Shown here: positions 1 to 34,956 of the stretch, piece by piece
Numbering within the stretch: the stretch's first letter is position 1
Layout: every line of letters begins with the position of its first letter
From: a virus
Length of the DNA stretch: 34,956 nt
IMG/VR virus record: IMGVR_UViG_3300042453_000037
Coordinates: 1-34,956 of that record
Direction: 5' to 3' (one strand)
Notes under the pieces: generated by a model
What the model was told of the DNA's origin: nothing
Seen by the model: only the letters and a program-made list of their open reading frames with translations
The model's database searches: none
Translations under genes and position numbers: made by a program

Positions 1-127
1 CAATTCAAGAACGGCATGATGGGCGCTGGCGTATTGGGCTTTGATGAAGTCAATATGTCTCAGTCTATCAAGCAACACACTACTGGTTCACGCAGCGCAA
101 GTGCTTCTACATTGGTTAAGACCCCCG
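1..127. repeat. Terminal direct repeat, copy 1 (contig ends overlap)
   Basis: Bases 1-127 are identical to 34830-34956. Both copies lie in the same frame of the capsid gene, so joining the ends restores one uninterrupted 403-codon gene. A length of exactly 127 is a common assembly k-mer size, so this is most likely an assembly overlap that marks a circular or circularly permuted genome rather than a biological terminal repeat. The unique genome length is then 34,829 bp. Confidence 0.95.
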
Positions 128-645
128 GCGTTACTTCCGAAGGTTCTTCTACCATCTTGTTGGAACAAGGCTCTGTGACTACCACCATCAAAGCTGGTGA
201 CGTGTTCACTATCAGTGCTTGCAATGCAGTCAACCCACAGACCCGTGAAACCACTGGTTCCTTGTTCCAATTCGTAGCCTTGGCTGATGCCACTGCTGTG
301 TCGGGTACTTGGACTGTGACCGTTGCTCCTATGTACTCTGCAAATACTGCTTTGGCTACTATGGATGCTTTGCCTGCAACTGGCGGCACTGTAACCTTTG
401 TTGGTACTGCTTCTACTGCATACGCACAGAACTTGGTCTATCACAAAGATGCGATCACCTTCGCTACTGCTGACTTGTTGCTGCCTCAAGGCGTTGACAT
501 GGCTTCACGTGCGGTTCATAACGGTATCAGCTTGCGTGTTGTGCGCCAGTACGATATTAACAATGACCGTATGCCTTGCCGTATTGACGTTTTGTACGGT
601 TACAGCACCATCCGTCCACAGATGGCTTGCCGTATCTGGGGCTAA
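1..645 (+). CDS. Major capsid (coat) protein, C-terminal part
   Basis: This is the 3' part of the coat gene that begins at 34263. Base 1 is the first base of a codon, and the reading frame continues exactly from base 34829, giving 403 residues in total. P22 coat gp5 is 430 residues, so the size suits the family. The place in the order portal, scaffold, coat, gp4-like, gp10-like supports the call. The protein forms the procapsid shell on the scaffold. The gene ends at a TAA followed six bases later by a strong hairpin terminator. The P22-like identity rests on gene order and general sequence character, not on an alignment. Confidence 0.88.
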   Translation, partial: QFKNGMMGAGVLGFDEVNMSQSIKQHTTGSRSASASTLVKTPGVTSEGSSTILLEQGSVTTTIKAGDVFTISACNAVNPQTRETTGSLFQFVALADATAVSGTWTVTVAPMYSANTALATMDALPATGGTVTFVGTASTAYAQNLVYHKDAITFATADLLLPQGVDMASRAVHNGISLRVVRQYDINNDRMPCRIDVLYGYSTIRPQMACRIWG

Positions 646-5908: not shown

Positions 5909-6624
5909 CATGGGGCGTTGTAGCAACAATAGGTGGGAATTTATATAGCGCATCCGAAAACCGTAAAGCGGCATCACAGGCCGCTGACGCAGCAACTAGG
6001 GGTAGGGAAGAGTCAATGGCTTTTCAGCGTGAGATGCTAGACAAACAACTAGGATTGACCGCCCCTTATCGTGAAGGTGGTGCTACTGCCCAAAATAAAT
6101 TGATGGAACTTTTGGGTATTGGCACTAACACTGGGGGTGCTGAGTATGGTAAGTACGGTAAAGATTTTGGGATGTCTGACTTTGTTACTGACCCGGGATA
6201 CCTTTTTAGGTTAACTGAAGGTCAAAAAGCTATTGACCGCAGTGCTGCTGCCCGTGGTGGTACGCAATCTGGTGCGGCACTTAAAGCAGCAACTCGATAC
6301 GGTCAGCAAGCAGGTTCGCAGGAATACGGTAATGCGTATGAGCGCTATAACACTAACCGCACCAATCGGCTTGCACCTCTTGGCAGCATAGCCACTATGG
6401 GTGCAAATGCTGCTACCAATAACGCTACTCAAGTGGGTAACTATGGCACAAGTGGTGGCAAACTACTGACTGACACAGGTGTAGATCAAGGCAATGCTCT
6501 TTTGGCAGCACAGCGTTCTAATGCCTCGGCTTACGGTGATGTTGCAAAAAGTTTAGGCAGCATGGATTTTTCTAAATTTAATCTTAATACTGCACCTTGG
6601 ATTGGTGGCGGTAGCGTCTGGTAA
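5905..6624 (+). CDS. P22 gp7-like DNA ejection (pilot) protein
   Basis: 239 residues. The N-terminal helix (ENRKAASQAADAATRGREES) is amphipathic, and the middle contains a GYLFRLTEGQKAIDRSAAAR segment followed by a GGTQSGAALKAATRYGQQ run, a pattern I associate with podovirus internal proteins of the gp7 type. In P22 gp7, gp20 and gp16 are ejected ahead of the DNA and form a channel across the cell envelope. Here it is the first of three consecutive genes of that kind. It overlaps the cupin gene by four bases (ATGA). Confidence 0.7.
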   Translation: MTWGVVATIGGNLYSASENRKAASQAADAATRGREESMAFQREMLDKQLGLTAPYREGGATAQNKLMELLGIGTNTGGAEYGKYGKDFGMSDFVTDPGYLFRLTEGQKAIDRSAAARGGTQSGAALKAATRYGQQAGSQEYGNAYERYNTNRTNRLAPLGSIATMGANAATNNATQVGNYGTSGGKLLTDTGVDQGNALLAAQRSNASAYGDVAKSLGSMDFSKFNLNTAPWIGGGSVW

Positions 6625-8077: not shown

Positions 8078-9769
8078 ATGGCTTTGCCCGAAGGATTTAC
8101 ATTAGAACAGCCAACACAGGCTGCTGGTACGCTTAATCTTCCTGCGGGATTTAAACTTGAGCCTAAGTCGTTCAACGCTTATAAAATGATAATGAACGCG
8201 CCAGAAAGTTTGTATAAAAACACCATTGGCGGCTTGGTTGAGGCGGTAAGCAGCCCATTGCAGACAGGCCAGGCTCTAGCTGATGTTGTTGCTGGCGGTG
8301 TGTATAAAGCGTTGCCAAAACCATTTCAGCGTGGACTGGCTGCAATTGAAGCCTCACCTTACAACCCACTTGGCAACCCTGCGGCACTGCAACGCGCTCA
8401 AAATGTTGCTAGTGGTTTTGGGCAAGAGTTGGTTAGACCCTACACTAGCACCGAAGGCTTCCAACGCACAATGGAAGAAGACCCTTTTAGGGTTGTCGGT
8501 GATGTGTCTATGTTGTTGGGTGGCGGTTCGGCTATGGCTAAAGCTGCAAATATAAGCCCTAGTGCAAACAGAGCCGCGAATATGTTGACTCAGGCATCTA
8601 ATGCCATTAACCCAGTAAATGCATTGCTTAAAACTGGTCAGCTTGTAACTAAGGGAGTCCCGCAACTTGTTGCAAGCGGAATTGGTTTAACCACTGGTGT
8701 TGGTGGTGATACCGTAAAAGAAGCATTTAAAGCAGGTTTAAAAGGCAAAACAGCGTTTAAAGAAAATATAAGTGGCAATGCACCAATCACGCAAGTGCTT
8801 GACGATGCAAGGGCTAACCTTGCTCAAATCAATGCTAACAAGCAAGCTGACTATCGATCTGGCATGGTTAACATTGCAAACGATAAAGCCATTCTTGATT
8901 TCACTGGAATTGACAACGCCTTAACAAACGCAGAAAAATATTCTAAATTTAAAGGAAAGATTGTTAATGAAACCGCAGATAATTTATTAACTTCTATTCA
9001 GAAAACAGTAAACGATTGGAAGCAATCAAACCCTGCTGATTTTCATACGCCAGAAGGTTTAGACCAATTAAAACAAGCTGTTTGGGGTGAAATTGAAAAA
9101 TTGCCACAAGGATCAAAGCAAGCATATTCTGCTGGCAAAGATGTTTACAACGCAATTAAGTCAGAAATTACCGCACAATCTCCGACTTACGCCAATGTAA
9201 TGAAGGAATACACAGATGCTAGTGAGTTAATCCATGAAATTGAACGATCTTTATCATTGGGTAAAAAGGCTTCTGCCGACACAGCATTGAGAAAATTACA
9301 ATCTTTAACAAGAAACAATGTAAATACAAATTATGGTCAACGCCAGGCATTAGCGCAACAGCTTGTAGAAGGCGGTGGCAATGAATTGATGCCAGCGTTA
9401 GCAGGCCAAGCAATGAGCAGTTTTGCACCAAGAGGTTTAGCAGGACAAGGCGGCGCTCTTGGTGCTGGTTTAGCTGCTTTTTCTAATCCTTACACAGCCG
9501 CTGCTTTGCCTTTTATGAGTCCTAGATTGATGGGCGAAGCTGCTTATGGCGCTGGTAGGATTGGGGCTGGTGTAAATGCTTTAGCGCAACCAGTTCAAAA
9601 CGCCCTTGCACCTACTATTGCCAACGCACAAAGGTTAGCATCTAGAGTGCCTATGACTGCTGAACAAGCTAAGATGTTAGCGTTGATAGCAGCTAGAACT
9701 GGCAACATTCCAAGATTAGAAGCATCGGGAATGACAACAGACAACCCAACGGGTCGATTTACACAATAG
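8078..9769 (+). CDS. Probable internal virion / DNA ejection protein (gp16 position)
   Basis: 563 residues; P22 gp16 is 609. It opens with two related short motifs (LPEGFTLEQP and LPAGFKLEPK), has a Gly/Ala-rich hydrophobic region (about 40-215) that could enter a membrane, a long helical section (about 240-420), and a second Gly/Ala-rich segment (about 425-500). The combination of membrane-active and helical parts fits the largest ejection protein. It is the third of three consecutive ejection-type genes before the second fibre. Confidence 0.6.
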   Translation: MALPEGFTLEQPTQAAGTLNLPAGFKLEPKSFNAYKMIMNAPESLYKNTIGGLVEAVSSPLQTGQALADVVAGGVYKALPKPFQRGLAAIEASPYNPLGNPAALQRAQNVASGFGQELVRPYTSTEGFQRTMEEDPFRVVGDVSMLLGGGSAMAKAANISPSANRAANMLTQASNAINPVNALLKTGQLVTKGVPQLVASGIGLTTGVGGDTVKEAFKAGLKGKTAFKENISGNAPITQVLDDARANLAQINANKQADYRSGMVNIANDKAILDFTGIDNALTNAEKYSKFKGKIVNETADNLLTSIQKTVNDWKQSNPADFHTPEGLDQLKQAVWGEIEKLPQGSKQAYSAGKDVYNAIKSEITAQSPTYANVMKEYTDASELIHEIERSLSLGKKASADTALRKLQSLTRNNVNTNYGQRQALAQQLVEGGGNELMPALAGQAMSSFAPRGLAGQGGALGAGLAAFSNPYTAAALPFMSPRLMGEAAYGAGRIGAGVNALAQPVQNALAPTIANAQRLASRVPMTAEQAKMLALIAARTGNIPRLEASGMTTDNPTGRFTQ

Positions 9770-21508: not shown

Positions 21509-23566
21509 ATGACATCCCTAACAACAATATTCCCAAATGGTTTTGCGGCTGCTACTGAAAGCCAAGACTTGATCAACCCAGAGGAGGGGTTTCGGCAGCA
21601 CTGTGAGGCATCGGGCTTGCTGGTCAAGGAGATCATCCCTGACGGTGAGATTCACCGTGTGGCGCATATATCAAGCAAAAAGGGTGCATTGGATGGTTGG
21701 TACATCCTGCACACCAGCGGGAAAATACCTGTGGGGATCGCTGGCTGCTGGAAAGAGCCAACCTTTGAGGCTAAGTGGGTGGCTGACATTGGGCGGTCTA
21801 TGTCGTTCACTGAGCGCTTTGAACATGACAAGTGGGTTTCGGAGATCAAGGCCAAGAAGGAAGCTGATCGGTTGGTGTCGCAGGCGGTAGCTGCTGAGAA
21901 GGCAGAGGATGAGGTGGGGACATATGCTGATGCGTCTGCTGACCATCCTTACTTGGTGCGAAAGCACATAGAACCACACGGGATCAAGATTGATCGCGCT
22001 GGTCGGTTGGTTGTGCCAGTCATTGACCAGCACGGTGAGATTCTGTCGTACCAAACCATTGATGCGGAGGGGAACAAGCGGTTTCTAAAGGGTGGCAAGA
22101 TCGAGGGTGGGTTTTATGAACTGCGCGGTAATAGGAAGATTGTGTTTGTGGGTGAGGGGTTTGCTACCTGTGCATCAATCCATGAGGCAACGGGCTACAC
22201 GGTGATGGTGGCGTTTGACTGTGGGAATCTTGCCAAGGTAGCCAAGAGCGCCAAGGAGATGTTCCCTAGTGCCAAGATCGTGATCGGCGCTGACAATGAC
22301 CAGTGGACAGAGGGCAATCCTGGCGTGACAAAGGGTCGTGCGGCTGCGGGGCTGGTGTTTGGTGAGATTGTCTACCCAACCTTTAGTGAGTCTGACATGA
22401 CGGACAACAAGCCCACAGACTTCAATGACCTGCACTGCTTGCAGGGGCTGGATGCCGTAAAAGACCAAATTGAGCGCGTGGCTGGGCCAGTCAAAGACAA
22501 GCTGGCGTTTGAGTTCAGCAGGGTGGACAGCCTGCAACTGACAGAGATCAAGTGGATCGTGGATGATTACATTGAATCTGACTCCCTAGCGCAGGTGTTC
22601 GGTGACCCAGGCGGCGGTAAGTCGTTTGTAGCCATCGACATTGCTTGTTGCGTGGCAACGGGGTCGGCGTGGCACGGTCACCAAGTCAAGCAAGGGGCTG
22701 TGTTTTATATCGCAGGTGAAGGGCATAACGGTCTTGCACGGCGGTTTAAGGCATGGGAACTGGGCAACGGTATCTCCTTATCAGGCGCACCAATCTTTAA
22801 AAGCCACAGGGCAGCGCAACTGTATGACGCAACAGAGGCTGCGCTGGTGGCTGTGTCGATTAAGCAACTCAGCGAGGAGGCTGGCTGCATCCCATCCATG
22901 ATCGTGATCGACACATTAGCGAGAAATATGGGCGGTGACGAGAACAGCACTCAGGACATGAATGCCTTTATCCAGCACATTGATAACTACCTACGCCAAG
23001 TGTGGAATTGCTCGGTGATCATTGTCCACCACAGCGGGACAATGGACAAGGACAGGGGGCGGGGGTCTAGCGCCTTAAAGGGTGCGCTGGATGCTGAGTA
23101 CCGTGTGGCGCTGGACTCAGGCACTAAAACCATCCAGTTTGAGAACAAGAAGATGAAGGATGCGGAAATGCCCATTCCTAAGAACTTTCAGATAACTCAG
23201 GTCGATTTACCGATCCTTGATAAGCACAACCTGCCAGTCAAGGGGGCGTACCTGACCACTGTGGACATCAGCGGGTTGGTGAGCCAAGTACAGAAAAAGA
23301 CCTACCTTTCGCCAAACCAGATACAGGTGATGAAGTGCTTGGTGATGTTAGAAACCAAGCGATTCCAAGACCAACAAGCTCACCCAGTGAGCTATGACGA
23401 GTGGCGTGAAAGTGCCAAAGAACACAATGTAAAGAACAATAGGTTCTGGGAAGTGGTCAAGAATTTGGTGTCCAAGGCGATGGTTGTGGAGGTCAATGGT
23501 GGGTACAAGAGCCATCCGAAAGCATCCGAAAGTGAGCCAAATAGTATAGTTTCGGATGACAAATAA
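21509..23566 (+). CDS. Toprim primase-helicase (RepA/AAA_25-like), replication initiator
   Basis: 685 residues. Domain order: an N-terminal region (1-140); a Toprim domain with E216 in VGEGFAT and acidic residues in GADND (260-264); a RecA-like hexameric helicase domain with Walker A GDPGGGKS (365-372), Walker B MIVIDT (464-469) and HHSG (507-510); and a C-terminal winged-helix-like segment (about 600-667). It synthesises primers and unwinds DNA for replication by the host polymerase, since the phage encodes none. Two CATCCGAA repeats and one reversed copy of the iteron cluster lie within its last 54 coding bases. Confidence 0.85.
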   Translation: MTSLTTIFPNGFAAATESQDLINPEEGFRQHCEASGLLVKEIIPDGEIHRVAHISSKKGALDGWYILHTSGKIPVGIAGCWKEPTFEAKWVADIGRSMSFTERFEHDKWVSEIKAKKEADRLVSQAVAAEKAEDEVGTYADASADHPYLVRKHIEPHGIKIDRAGRLVVPVIDQHGEILSYQTIDAEGNKRFLKGGKIEGGFYELRGNRKIVFVGEGFATCASIHEATGYTVMVAFDCGNLAKVAKSAKEMFPSAKIVIGADNDQWTEGNPGVTKGRAAAGLVFGEIVYPTFSESDMTDNKPTDFNDLHCLQGLDAVKDQIERVAGPVKDKLAFEFSRVDSLQLTEIKWIVDDYIESDSLAQVFGDPGGGKSFVAIDIACCVATGSAWHGHQVKQGAVFYIAGEGHNGLARRFKAWELGNGISLSGAPIFKSHRAAQLYDATEAALVAVSIKQLSEEAGCIPSMIVIDTLARNMGGDENSTQDMNAFIQHIDNYLRQVWNCSVIIVHHSGTMDKDRGRGSSALKGALDAEYRVALDSGTKTIQFENKKMKDAEMPIPKNFQITQVDLPILDKHNLPVKGAYLTTVDISGLVSQVQKKTYLSPNQIQVMKCLVMLETKRFQDQQAHPVSYDEWRESAKEHNVKNNRFWEVVKNLVSKAMVVEVNGGYKSHPKASESEPNSIVSDDK

Positions 23567-23697
23567 TCATCCGAATTAGCATCCGAATCATCCGAAAGCA
23601 TCCGAATTCATCCGCGTGACTGCCACTCCAATCATCCGAAACTATCCTCCTAGGTATACATACCTAGGATGGATTCGGATGGAAAGCAGTTCGGATG
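23513..23697. repeat. Iteron cluster CATCCGAA, candidate replication origin
   Basis: Ten exact copies of an 8-mer within 185 bases: CATCCGAA forward at 23513, 23523, 23568, 23580, 23589, 23599 and 23633, and reversed TTCGGATG at 23551, 23674 and 23690; a partial CATCCG stands at 23609. Several starts are 9-12 bases apart, close to one helical turn. The cluster begins in the 3' end of the primase-helicase gene and fills the noncoding gap to RusA. This is the layout of iteron origins. Confidence 0.75.
23648..23669. repeat. 22-bp inverted repeat within the iteron cluster
   Basis: Arms TCCTAGGTAT (23648-23657) and ATACCTAGGA (23660-23669) pair perfectly across a two-base spacer. It separates the forward iterons from the final two reversed ones. 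It may be a dimeric protein site or, as single strand, a hairpin. Confidence 0.7.
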
Positions 23698-23749: not shown

Positions 23750-24085
23750 GTGATTGAACTGGATGTGGATATAAAGGTGGTCAGCGTTGCCAACTTGCGG
23801 ATGTATTGGGCGGTGAAAGCACGGTTGACCAAGGATCATCGTAAAAAGGCGTATAACGCACTTTGTGCGGTGGCTGCACCTCCGACCCCACCTTGCACGA
23901 TCGTGTTGACCAGAGTTGCTCCTAGAGCTTTGGATGGGGATAATCTGCAATCAGCGTTTAAGGCGGTGAGAGATGGGGTTGCTGATTGGCTTGGGGTTGA
24001 TGATGGGGATCAGCGCTTGGATTGGCAGTATCGCCAGCGCTCGGCTGGTGTGAAGGTGTACAGGGTTGAGATTGAGGTGATCTGA
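23750..24085 (+). CDS. RusA-type Holliday junction resolvase
   Basis: 111 residues from a GTG with AAGGTG upstream. The RusA pattern is clear: D62-x-D64-N65, K71 and the D84-D85 pair in LDGDNLQSAF, KAVRDGVADWLGVDDGDQ. RusA family enzymes cut four-way junctions as metal-dependent dimers and help resolve recombination or replication intermediates before packaging. It lies just after the iteron cluster. Size fits the family (about 120). Confidence 0.85.
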   Translation: MIELDVDIKVVSVANLRMYWAVKARLTKDHRKKAYNALCAVAAPPTPPCTIVLTRVAPRALDGDNLQSAFKAVRDGVADWLGVDDGDQRLDWQYRQRSAGVKVYRVEIEVI

Positions 24086-33465: not shown

Positions 33466-34242
33466 ATGACTGAAGAAGTCCAAAACCTAGCGGAAGTTGA
33501 CTCCGTGCCAACACCAAGTGAGACGGCCTCACCGGAAGTTGTAGAAGTTACGCCGGAGACACCAGAGGTAGTCAGCAAGTCATTCTCGCAAGAGGAACTT
33601 GATGCTGCAATTGGTAAACGCCTCGCAAGAGAGCAACGTAAATGGGAACGAGAGCAAGCAAATCGCCAAGCGGAAACGCAGGTGATGAAGGCTGCACCAA
33701 CGGCAACCGTTGACCAGTTTGAAAGCCCCGAAGCCTATGCGGAAGCATTGGCCTATTCAAAGGCTGAAGAATTGATCGCTAGACGAGAAGCCGCCAAGCA
33801 GCAATCGCAGGTTCTTGAGAGTTATCACGAGCGTGAAGAAGAAGCGCGGAGCAAATACGAGGACTTTGAACAAGTTGCGTATAACCCCAAGCTGACAATT
33901 ACAAATGTGATGGCAGAAACGATCCAATCCTCGGATGTTGGCCCCGACTTAGCCTATTGGCTTGGGACTAACCCTAAAGAAGCAGACCGTATTTCCAGAA
34001 TGTCGCCACTCGGTCAGGCAAAGGAAATCGGAAAGATTGAGGCTAAATTAGCTTCTGATCCTCCGGTGAAAAGATCAACGTCTGCGCCAGCACCTATTTC
34101 GCCAGTTACTGCCCGATCTTCTGGATCACCAGCACTTGACACTACTGACCCACGCTCTATCAAGAGCATGACAACCTCGGAGTGGATTGCGGCTGACAGG
34201 GCAAGACAGATGAAAAAGTGGCAGTCACAGGCTAACCGCTAA
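33466..34242 (+). CDS. Capsid scaffolding protein
   Basis: 258 residues; P22 gp8 is 303. An acidic N-terminal region (TEEVQNLAEVDSVPTPSET), then a long charged coiled coil (about 45-125, with QEELDAAIGKRLAREQRKWE), and a basic C-terminus (WIAADRARQMKKWQSQANR) of the type that binds coat protein. Position immediately before the coat gene is diagnostic. It drives procapsid assembly and leaves before or during packaging. Confidence 0.85.
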   Translation: MTEEVQNLAEVDSVPTPSETASPEVVEVTPETPEVVSKSFSQEELDAAIGKRLAREQRKWEREQANRQAETQVMKAAPTATVDQFESPEAYAEALAYSKAEELIARREAAKQQSQVLESYHEREEEARSKYEDFEQVAYNPKLTITNVMAETIQSSDVGPDLAYWLGTNPKEADRISRMSPLGQAKEIGKIEAKLASDPPVKRSTSAPAPISPVTARSSGSPALDTTDPRSIKSMTTSEWIAADRARQMKKWQSQANR

Positions 34243-34262
34243 CTTTTTTAAGGACTTTTAAA

Positions 34263-34956
34263 ATGTCAAACAGTATCCTAACGATCGACATGATCACCCG
34301 CAAGGCTCTCGAAATTCTTGAGAACAACCTTGTTTTGACCCGCAATGTAAACCGCCAGTACGACGACAGCTTTGCTGTTGAAGGTGCGAAGATCGGTTCA
34401 ACCCTGCGTATCCGTTTACCTGACCGCGCTTTGGTTACTGACGGTGCTGCCTTGCAAGTGCAAGACGACAACGAACAGTTCACCACGTTGTCTGTAAACA
34501 ACCAAAAGCACATTGGTGTCAACTTCACATCTGCTGAATTGACCATGCAATTGGATGACTTTGCAGAGCGTGTTCTCAAGCCTCGTATCAGCCAATTGGC
34601 ATCTTCTATTGATGCTGACGTTGCTAATGCGTACAAAACCATCGGTAACACCGTTGGAACACCCGGCACTACTCCTTCGACTTCTTTGGTCTTGTTGCAA
34701 GCCCAACAGAAATTGAACGAAAACGCTGCTGTGATGTCCCCACGTTACGCAACCGTAAACCCTGCTGCTAACGCTGGCTTGGTTGAAGGCATGAAGGGTC
34801 TGTTTAATCCAACAGATACCGTTAGCCGCCAATTCAAGAACGGCATGATGGGCGCTGGCGTATTGGGCTTTGATGAAGTCAATATGTCTCAGTCTATCAA
34901 GCAACACACTACTGGTTCACGCAGCGCAAGTGCTTCTACATTGGTTAAGACCCCCG
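34263..34956 (+). CDS. Major capsid (coat) protein, N-terminal part
   Basis: The gene begins MSNSILTIDMITRKALEILE with AAGGAC upstream and runs off the end of the window; it continues from base 1 (base 34830 equals base 1). The full protein is 403 residues. RQYDDSFAVEGAKIGSTLRI and the conserved NQKHIGVNFTSAELTMQLDD are the kind of segments found in P22-like coat proteins. The terminal 127 bases are the duplicated overlap. Confidence 0.9.
   Translation, partial: MSNSILTIDMITRKALEILENNLVLTRNVNRQYDDSFAVEGAKIGSTLRIRLPDRALVTDGAALQVQDDNEQFTTLSVNNQKHIGVNFTSAELTMQLDDFAERVLKPRISQLASSIDADVANAYKTIGNTVGTPGTTPSTSLVLLQAQQKLNENAAVMSPRYATVNPAANAGLVEGMKGLFNPTDTVSRQFKNGMMGAGVLGFDEVNMSQSIKQHTTGSRSASASTLVKTP
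34830..34956. repeat. Terminal direct repeat, copy 2
   Basis: This is the exact second copy of bases 1-127. It lies inside the 5' part of the major capsid gene. It should be counted once in the genome; anything annotated in both copies is the same locus. Confidence 0.95.

Follow-up and report, generated by a model that had tools for sequence, protein, structure and literature searches.

A repeat array and winged helix at the end of a phage primase-helicase gene as a probable, exchangeable replication origin

A dense cluster of short repeats at the 3' end of a primase-helicase gene raises the question of where a freshwater phage starts copying its DNA. The gene is located in the virus record IMGVR_UViG_3300042453_000037, the whole of which (34956 bp, here called the window) was analysed, and which has matches to P22-like portal, coat and small terminase proteins. 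As judged from sequence comparisons, the repeat cluster is most likely the start site itself. We put at roughly 85% the probability that the array is a replication origin, putatively bound by a C-terminal winged helix of the primase-helicase, and that the winged helix, the array and an adjacent dyad form a recombining specificity cassette attached to a constant catalytic body (Table 1). The P22-like coat match at the start of the window (16-645) spans only the C-terminal profile positions 256-423. Because of this partial coverage, the genome is probably circularly permuted, with the record cut within the coat gene (window 16-645 and 33466-34956).

Exact copies of the 8-mer CATCCGAA/TTCGGATG start at positions 23513, 23523, 23568, 23580, 23589, 23599 and 23633 on the forward strand and at 23551, 23674 and 23690 on the reverse strand, in agreement with the ten copies, seven forward and three reverse in 185 bases, that a preliminary description had reported. 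The whole window contains 11 copies against 0.87 expected, with a maximum of 3 across 100 shuffles. In 300 window shuffles, CATCCGAA never occurred more than twice per 185 nt, and unrelated 8-mers reach at most three separate copies per 185 nt anywhere in the window. The sole copy outside the cluster is a stray at 5951, and the window holds neither a second cluster nor a similar density elsewhere. The primase-helicase ORF ends at 23566, which places three repeats inside the coding end and seven in the gap to the next ORF start at 23750, as had been described. The spacing of 9-12 bp between many repeat starts is likewise seen, in the main block of exact direct repeats at 23568-23606, where it corresponds to about one helical turn, and a partial repeat, CATCCGCG, is present at 23609. 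Direct repeats that are spaced by about one helical turn and adjoin an initiator gene are a general feature of iteron origins, and the array shows such repeats beside the proposed initiator gene. The tail of the window protein, SHPKASESEPNS, is encoded by the iterons, and in class C loci (L026, L030, L050, L053 and others; classes are defined below) the last 25 codons (EPKLTESVTES...) are the iteron array read as codons.

Table 1. Features of the putative origin region, in window coordinates.
Feature	Position	Strand	Basis or remark
Primase-helicase / proposed initiator, 685 aa	21509..23566	+	Toprim, RecA-type AAA_25 helicase, C-terminal winged helix (predicted)
C-terminal winged-helix domain (predicted), residues 596-668	23294..23512	+	AlphaFold2, VIA-align, iteron-class match
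Recognition helix (predicted), residues 643-655	23435-23473	+	Within predicted winged helix
Iteron array	23513..23697	.	Ten exact CATCCGAA, 7 + / 3 -, first three within primase-helicase gene
Long imperfect dyad (hairpin/cruciform, putative)	23620..23689	.	Sequence, fold, covariation in relatives
Apical palindrome CCTAGGTATACATACCTAGG, TACA/TATA centre	23649..23668	.	Sequence
Next gene, RusA-like by motif DGDNLQSAFKAVRDGVADWLGVDDGD only	23750..24085	+	Outside the putative swapped cassette

The primase-helicase matches the Pfam families AAA_25 (4e-35) and Toprim_3 (3e-8) and the PHROGs families of DNA primase and helicase. AAA_25 is its only helicase family, and neither a D5 nor an SF3 helicase family was found in it (Pfam, E 0.001). 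A sequence and profile search of the PDB returned a weak match to RSF1010 RepA (1g8y, E 0.07) and nothing else, and a search of bacterial genomes gave only partial matches that were confined to the primase part. No DNA polymerase was matched among the window proteins scanned, as is expected for an initiator that passes synthesis to the host. The AlphaFold2 model of the full-length protein was poor (pLDDT 44), with residues 600-670 as its best part, and the C-terminal domain was therefore modelled alone. With 55 relatives, the domain reached a pLDDT of 83, about 93 in the core, and showed the order helix-helix-helix-strand-strand. Archaeal MCM gives the top VIA-align match of this model, through its C-terminal winged helix (Z 10.0, 64 residues, 1.7 A), and the winged helices of ORC2 and Cdc6 are also in the list, while Foldseek gave nothing under E 0.001. 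The assignment to the winged helices draws on the order of the secondary structure elements and on VIA-align, which indicate a fold and not a function.

A scan of IMG/VR yielded 80 loci that are 79-100% identical. The array is located 3' of the primase-helicase gene in 79 of these, the 80th (L072) being cut at the gene end, and each locus contains one dense array of one motif. In most relatives the array starts no more than 60 nt past the stop codon, and in nine (L013-L017, L023, L049, L063 and L079) it lies 0.7-1.4 kb downstream, beyond cargo genes. The arrays fall into five motif classes (CATCCGAA, GTACCGAA, GAACCGAA, ATCCGGAT and GTCCGGA), with 33 loci for CATCCGAA, which is the window's own class (class A), 22 for GTACCGA(A), 17 for GAACCGAA, 5 for GTCCGGA and 2 for ATCCGGAT. 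More than one class was present in 10 of the 12 samples that yielded at least two loci. Absence of the repeat from close relatives had been proposed as evidence against an origin; the array itself is there in 79 of the 80, but the same motif in only 33, and such a test needs care because the relatives retain the array yet alter its sequence. The stretch between the gene stop and the array is also an insertion hot spot (L013, L014, L015, L023, L049, L063, L079), where the cargo includes PAPS-reductase-like, methyltransferase and unassigned genes, some of which begin in an ATGA that overlaps the stop codon of the primase-helicase.

Comparing the array DNA with phage records gave nothing useful, and aligning against viral contigs brought up mostly loci that were already known. 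In the reverse direction, three close exact copies of CATCCGAA were sought in 2.9 million viral contigs, which gave 60 places, and this gene with its winged helix adjoins the array in 50 of the 60 contigs. Among the remaining ten, L279 is the same array truncated close to where the fetched stretch ends, L286 starts within an array, and the others inspected look like coding or simple repeats, with the exception of L330. The latter contains TTCGGATGTCG repeats and inverted TTCGG copies (8208-8274) in a fetched stretch without this primase-helicase, and another replication gene, whose motif resembles this one, is possibly involved.

The motif class agrees without exception with the C-terminal domain and with no other gene tested, the neighbouring genes being partly covered. 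On the tree inferred from residues 596-668, the class changes four times, which is the minimum for five classes, as compared to 16 changes for residues 1-590, 14 for the next gene, 15 for the small terminase, and 10-12 (46-54 rows) or 6 (36 rows) for the upstream genes. Nearly all residues that are most informative on class are located in positions 593-680. When 45 thinned loci were compared by the recognition helix, the nearest neighbour shared the class in 44 of 44 testable cases; by each quarter of the body it did so in 58-66%, with 34% for shuffled labels. Residue 647 is a Tryptophan in proteins with TCCG motifs and a Lysine or Arginine in those with ACCG motifs, and residue 649 is an Alanine with CCGG and other residues with CCGA. 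Since the C-terminal tree has just four class changes, these helix residues are candidate rather than proven determinants of specificity.

The borders of the exchanged segment are sharp. In all 14 pairs with near-identical bodies and different classes, the similarity drops abruptly between residues 580 and 612, and pairs of different class that are at least 97% identical over residues 1-570 fall to 0.3-0.6 beyond residue 590. In the nine pairs inspected at the DNA level, the identity is about 0.9 up to nucleotide 1740 of the gene (codon 580), while over the last 210 nt of the gene it falls to about 0.6 in eight pairs and to 0.80 in a near-minimal class D/A pair (L008/L005). In the next gene it is back to about 0.9 in most of the nine, the exceptions being one pair at 0.80 and L015/L049 at 0.29. 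Because the pairs are about 90% identical up to codon 580, and mostly so again in the next gene, but differ between, the winged helix and the array, with the dyad, appear to be swapped between phages as a specificity cassette. Phages thus seem often to switch to another start signal and to keep the remaining machinery. The next gene (23750-24085), which the preliminary description had called RusA, does carry the motif DGDNLQSAFKAVRDGVADWLGVDDGD, but neither Pfam nor PHROGs matches it at E 0.001.

Because the domain and the array adjoin, linkage by itself explains part of the association between them. Linkage could also be the whole explanation, in which case the array and the domain, which are adjacent in most loci, would merely travel together and the repeat would have no protein partner. 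This is very improbable, since the match persists across 0.7-1.4 kb of cargo that is itself exchanged, the array is kept everywhere while its sequence changes, and the left class border coincides with that of the domain in all 14 pairs. The loci L013, L014 and L015, all of class E, contain unrelated cargo, and the domain-array match holds in each, while homologous cargo, 59-71% identical, is found in L013 and in the class B loci L023, L063 and L079. The cargo has its own history, so that the cargo loci separate linkage from function.

The preliminary description had not mentioned the long imperfect dyad, whose parts are an outer stem, a pair of inverted iterons and an apical palindrome; two of the ten repeats lie in it, inverted relative to each other. 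A dyad of 70-90 nt terminates the array. In the class A dyad (twelve sequences), 95.4% of the cells pair and 11 pairs (37 cells) show changes in both partners, with a one-sided change in one cell, whereas slid controls are at most 47% paired and have at most 3 pairs of this kind. In the class B dyad (ten sequences), the paired share is 98.8%, with two-sided changes in 18 cells and one-sided changes in none; here the outer iteron helix and the middle helix were left out of the covariation count because the register differs between sub-groups, and classes C, D and E were likewise left out. Across 41 distinct apical stems, distant phages included, the four central variable positions are Watson-Crick paired in 164 of 164 cases and contain all four pair types and no G-T. 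The pattern suggests that selection preserves the symmetry of the dyad over its sequence and tolerates no wobble. Covariation without wobble is the expected behaviour of a hairpin or cruciform in DNA and not of an RNA, pointing to the former. If the dyad instead acted as a hairpin or terminator in a transcript, with the repeats as by-products, its strong strand fold (94 nt, about -45 kcal/mol when computed with RNA parameters) would be accounted for, but selection on RNA would leave G-U intermediates in the 41 stems, eight of the ten repeats are located outside the dyad, and neither a terminator-like site nor an Rfam match was found at the dyad, making an RNA element highly improbable.

The repeats could also be operators through which the primase-helicase or another regulator controls its own or downstream transcription, with replication starting elsewhere. 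Repressors too have winged helices, and the arrays sit between two genes and overlap a gene end. The array is, however, placed 3' of the gene and away from its promoter, contains no sigma-70-like promoter that we could find, and is still linked to the gene despite inserted cargo genes; the matched protein is a primase-helicase, and a long covarying dyad is unusual for operators. An operator array is therefore improbable.

Similar arrays are present in phages whose proteins are only 32-40% identical to that of the window, namely Salicola phage CGphi29 (repeat TGTCCCC), Idiomarinaceae phage 1N2-2 (TGTACCG), Alteromonas phage PB15 (TGAACC) and Roseobacter phage CRP-406 (TTCCAGC). In all four, the repeats are located right after or partly within the gene end and a palindrome lies inside the array. 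A set of 97 distant loci was compiled from three further searches and these four phages. At least five copies of one 7-mer were found near the gene end in 56 of the 97, as compared to within the gene bodies in 2 of the 97, and by this 7-mer count about 40 of the 97 have no array of at least five copies. The distant loci contain at least 20 clearly different motifs. Independent switches of domain and motif are seen in L190/L193 (body 98%, C-terminus 54% identical), L232/L250 (96% and 27%) and L182/L185 (94% and 20%), the last two loci coming from one sample, and L173/L174 form a near-minimal pair (AGTTGCG versus AGTTACG, C-terminus 83%). With body identity taken into account, motif sharing correlates with identity at the C-terminus at 0.42, whereas the reverse comparison yields no correlation (0.06). 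About 30 relatives of the Salicola-phage primase-helicase (L203-L214 and about 20 more) have no detectable repeat array at the gene end, and in this sub-group either the origin may have moved or the repeats may have decayed. The distant phages also bear on whether the array could serve, near the terminase genes, in packaging (as a pac site) or in recombination. The small terminase gene is located about 0.5 kb downstream in the window, but it is independent of the iteron class (15 changes) although pac recognition should track it, and the Idiomarinaceae, Alteromonas and Roseobacter phages keep the array at the primase-helicase with no terminase annotated beside it. A pac site is thus extremely unlikely.

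By analogy with SaPI/SCC, P4, RSF1010 and pRN1 (PMC7581432, PMC4234260), we infer that the winged helix would bind the iterons 3' of its own gene and that the bound proteins would assemble the RecA-type helicase at the array. The adjacent dyad would then melt or extrude into a DNA hairpin, primers would be made by the Toprim part, perhaps at the dyad, and the host polymerase would continue. Recombination of the winged helix, array and dyad would give a new origin type with the same catalytic body. GC skew, which had been suggested as a guide to the replication start, shows no clear switch along the window and leaves the origin unmarked.

The preliminary description had interpreted the repeats as iterons of an origin beside an initiator gene. 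This part agrees with their position, with the single array per locus and with the tie between class and domain, but the lambda-type layout that it also proposed does not hold. In lambda, the iterons are located inside the initiator gene O, and the O protein has an N-terminal binding domain, no helicase and a separate helicase loader. The window resembles this system in having a phage initiator that putatively binds iterons, but seven of the ten copies are 3' of the gene and the protein contains a helicase domain. The layout is instead like that of SaPI/SCC, P4 and pRN1, because an initiator-helicase with a putative C-terminal DNA-binding domain is followed by a probable origin 3' of its gene. 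The helicase of P4 alpha belongs to SF3, whereas the window protein has AAA_25, and we know of no cassette exchange in P4.

SaPI Rep/ori and SCC Cch2 are initiator-helicases in which the C-terminal domain recognises iterons directly downstream of the gene (PMC7581432, with reference to Ubeda 2007). The window iterons are also directly 3' of the putative initiator gene, and the predicted fold and the class match suggest the C-terminal domain as their reader. The systems described there differ in having a D5/AAA+ helicase and in residing on staphylococcal islands, rather than a RecA-type AAA_25 helicase with Toprim in tailed phages, and the phages here add a long covarying dyad and many motif classes. 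The P4 alpha protein combines a Toprim primase, a helicase and a C-terminal winged helix that binds origin repeats (PMC4234260). The Toprim primase is present here too (Toprim_3, E 3e-8) and a C-terminal winged helix is predicted, but a dyad of this anatomy is not described for P4 there. For pRN1 ORF904 and the proposed BIP-1 phage origin, a stem-loop of about 100 nt lies 3' of a winged-helix replication gene, with low conservation in sequence and high conservation in structure, and neither iterons nor specific binding were found (PMC4234260). The stem-loop in the window is likewise located 3' of the gene, with structure kept over sequence, but the protein contains Toprim and AAA_25 instead of an archaeo-eukaryotic primase and an SF3 helicase. 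RSF1010 oriV, with its RecA-type hexameric helicase and its combination of iterons with hairpins for priming, resembles the putative origin here, but there the functions are divided among three proteins, RepA, RepB' and RepC, and the iterons are bound by RepC as a protein separate from the helicase (PMC4234260). Origins in which iterons lie at the 3' end of the gene for an initiator-helicase are a known kind. The RecA-type helicase fused to a Toprim primase, the structured dyad and the large-scale exchange of specificity appear to be new, being undescribed in the literature found, with subscription papers mostly outside it.

Exchange of an origin together with its binding domain has a precedent in the RepA protein of PLE satellites, where it occurred at least twice and was driven by a phage nuclease that cuts the origin (PMC8263062). 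The RepA_N domain is N-terminal in an unrelated protein, and the exchange concerns a few satellites, whereas a large phage family is involved here. Lambda is arrested by extra or ectopic copies of its own origin, and its origins are type-specific (PMC4488673). By analogy, pressure from nucleases or from arrest by the phage's own origin could favour rare origin types. A broader reading, to which we give somewhat less than an even chance, is that a large group of tailed phages, most of it uncultured, trades origin specificity freely as a module, consisting of a small winged helix, iterons and a DNA-level hairpin, that exists in dozens of specificities and is swapped like the recognition domain of a restriction system, probably since sharing an origin type with a competitor, a satellite or an origin-directed nuclease is costly. 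The recognition helix, with Tryptophan 647 for TCCG and Lysine or Arginine for ACCG, would in that case represent a partial protein-DNA code.

The loci provide many natural pairings of an initiator domain with its putative cognate site, near-minimal pairs included, with which the recognition of origins by winged helices may be worked out and tested. They also supply predicted origins for many environmental phages. Finally, they make the driver of origin switching testable, be it coinfecting phages in competition, satellites using a borrowed initiator or defence directed at the origin, drivers for which the PLE satellites (PMC8263062) and the arrest of lambda by ectopic origins (PMC4488673) are precedents.
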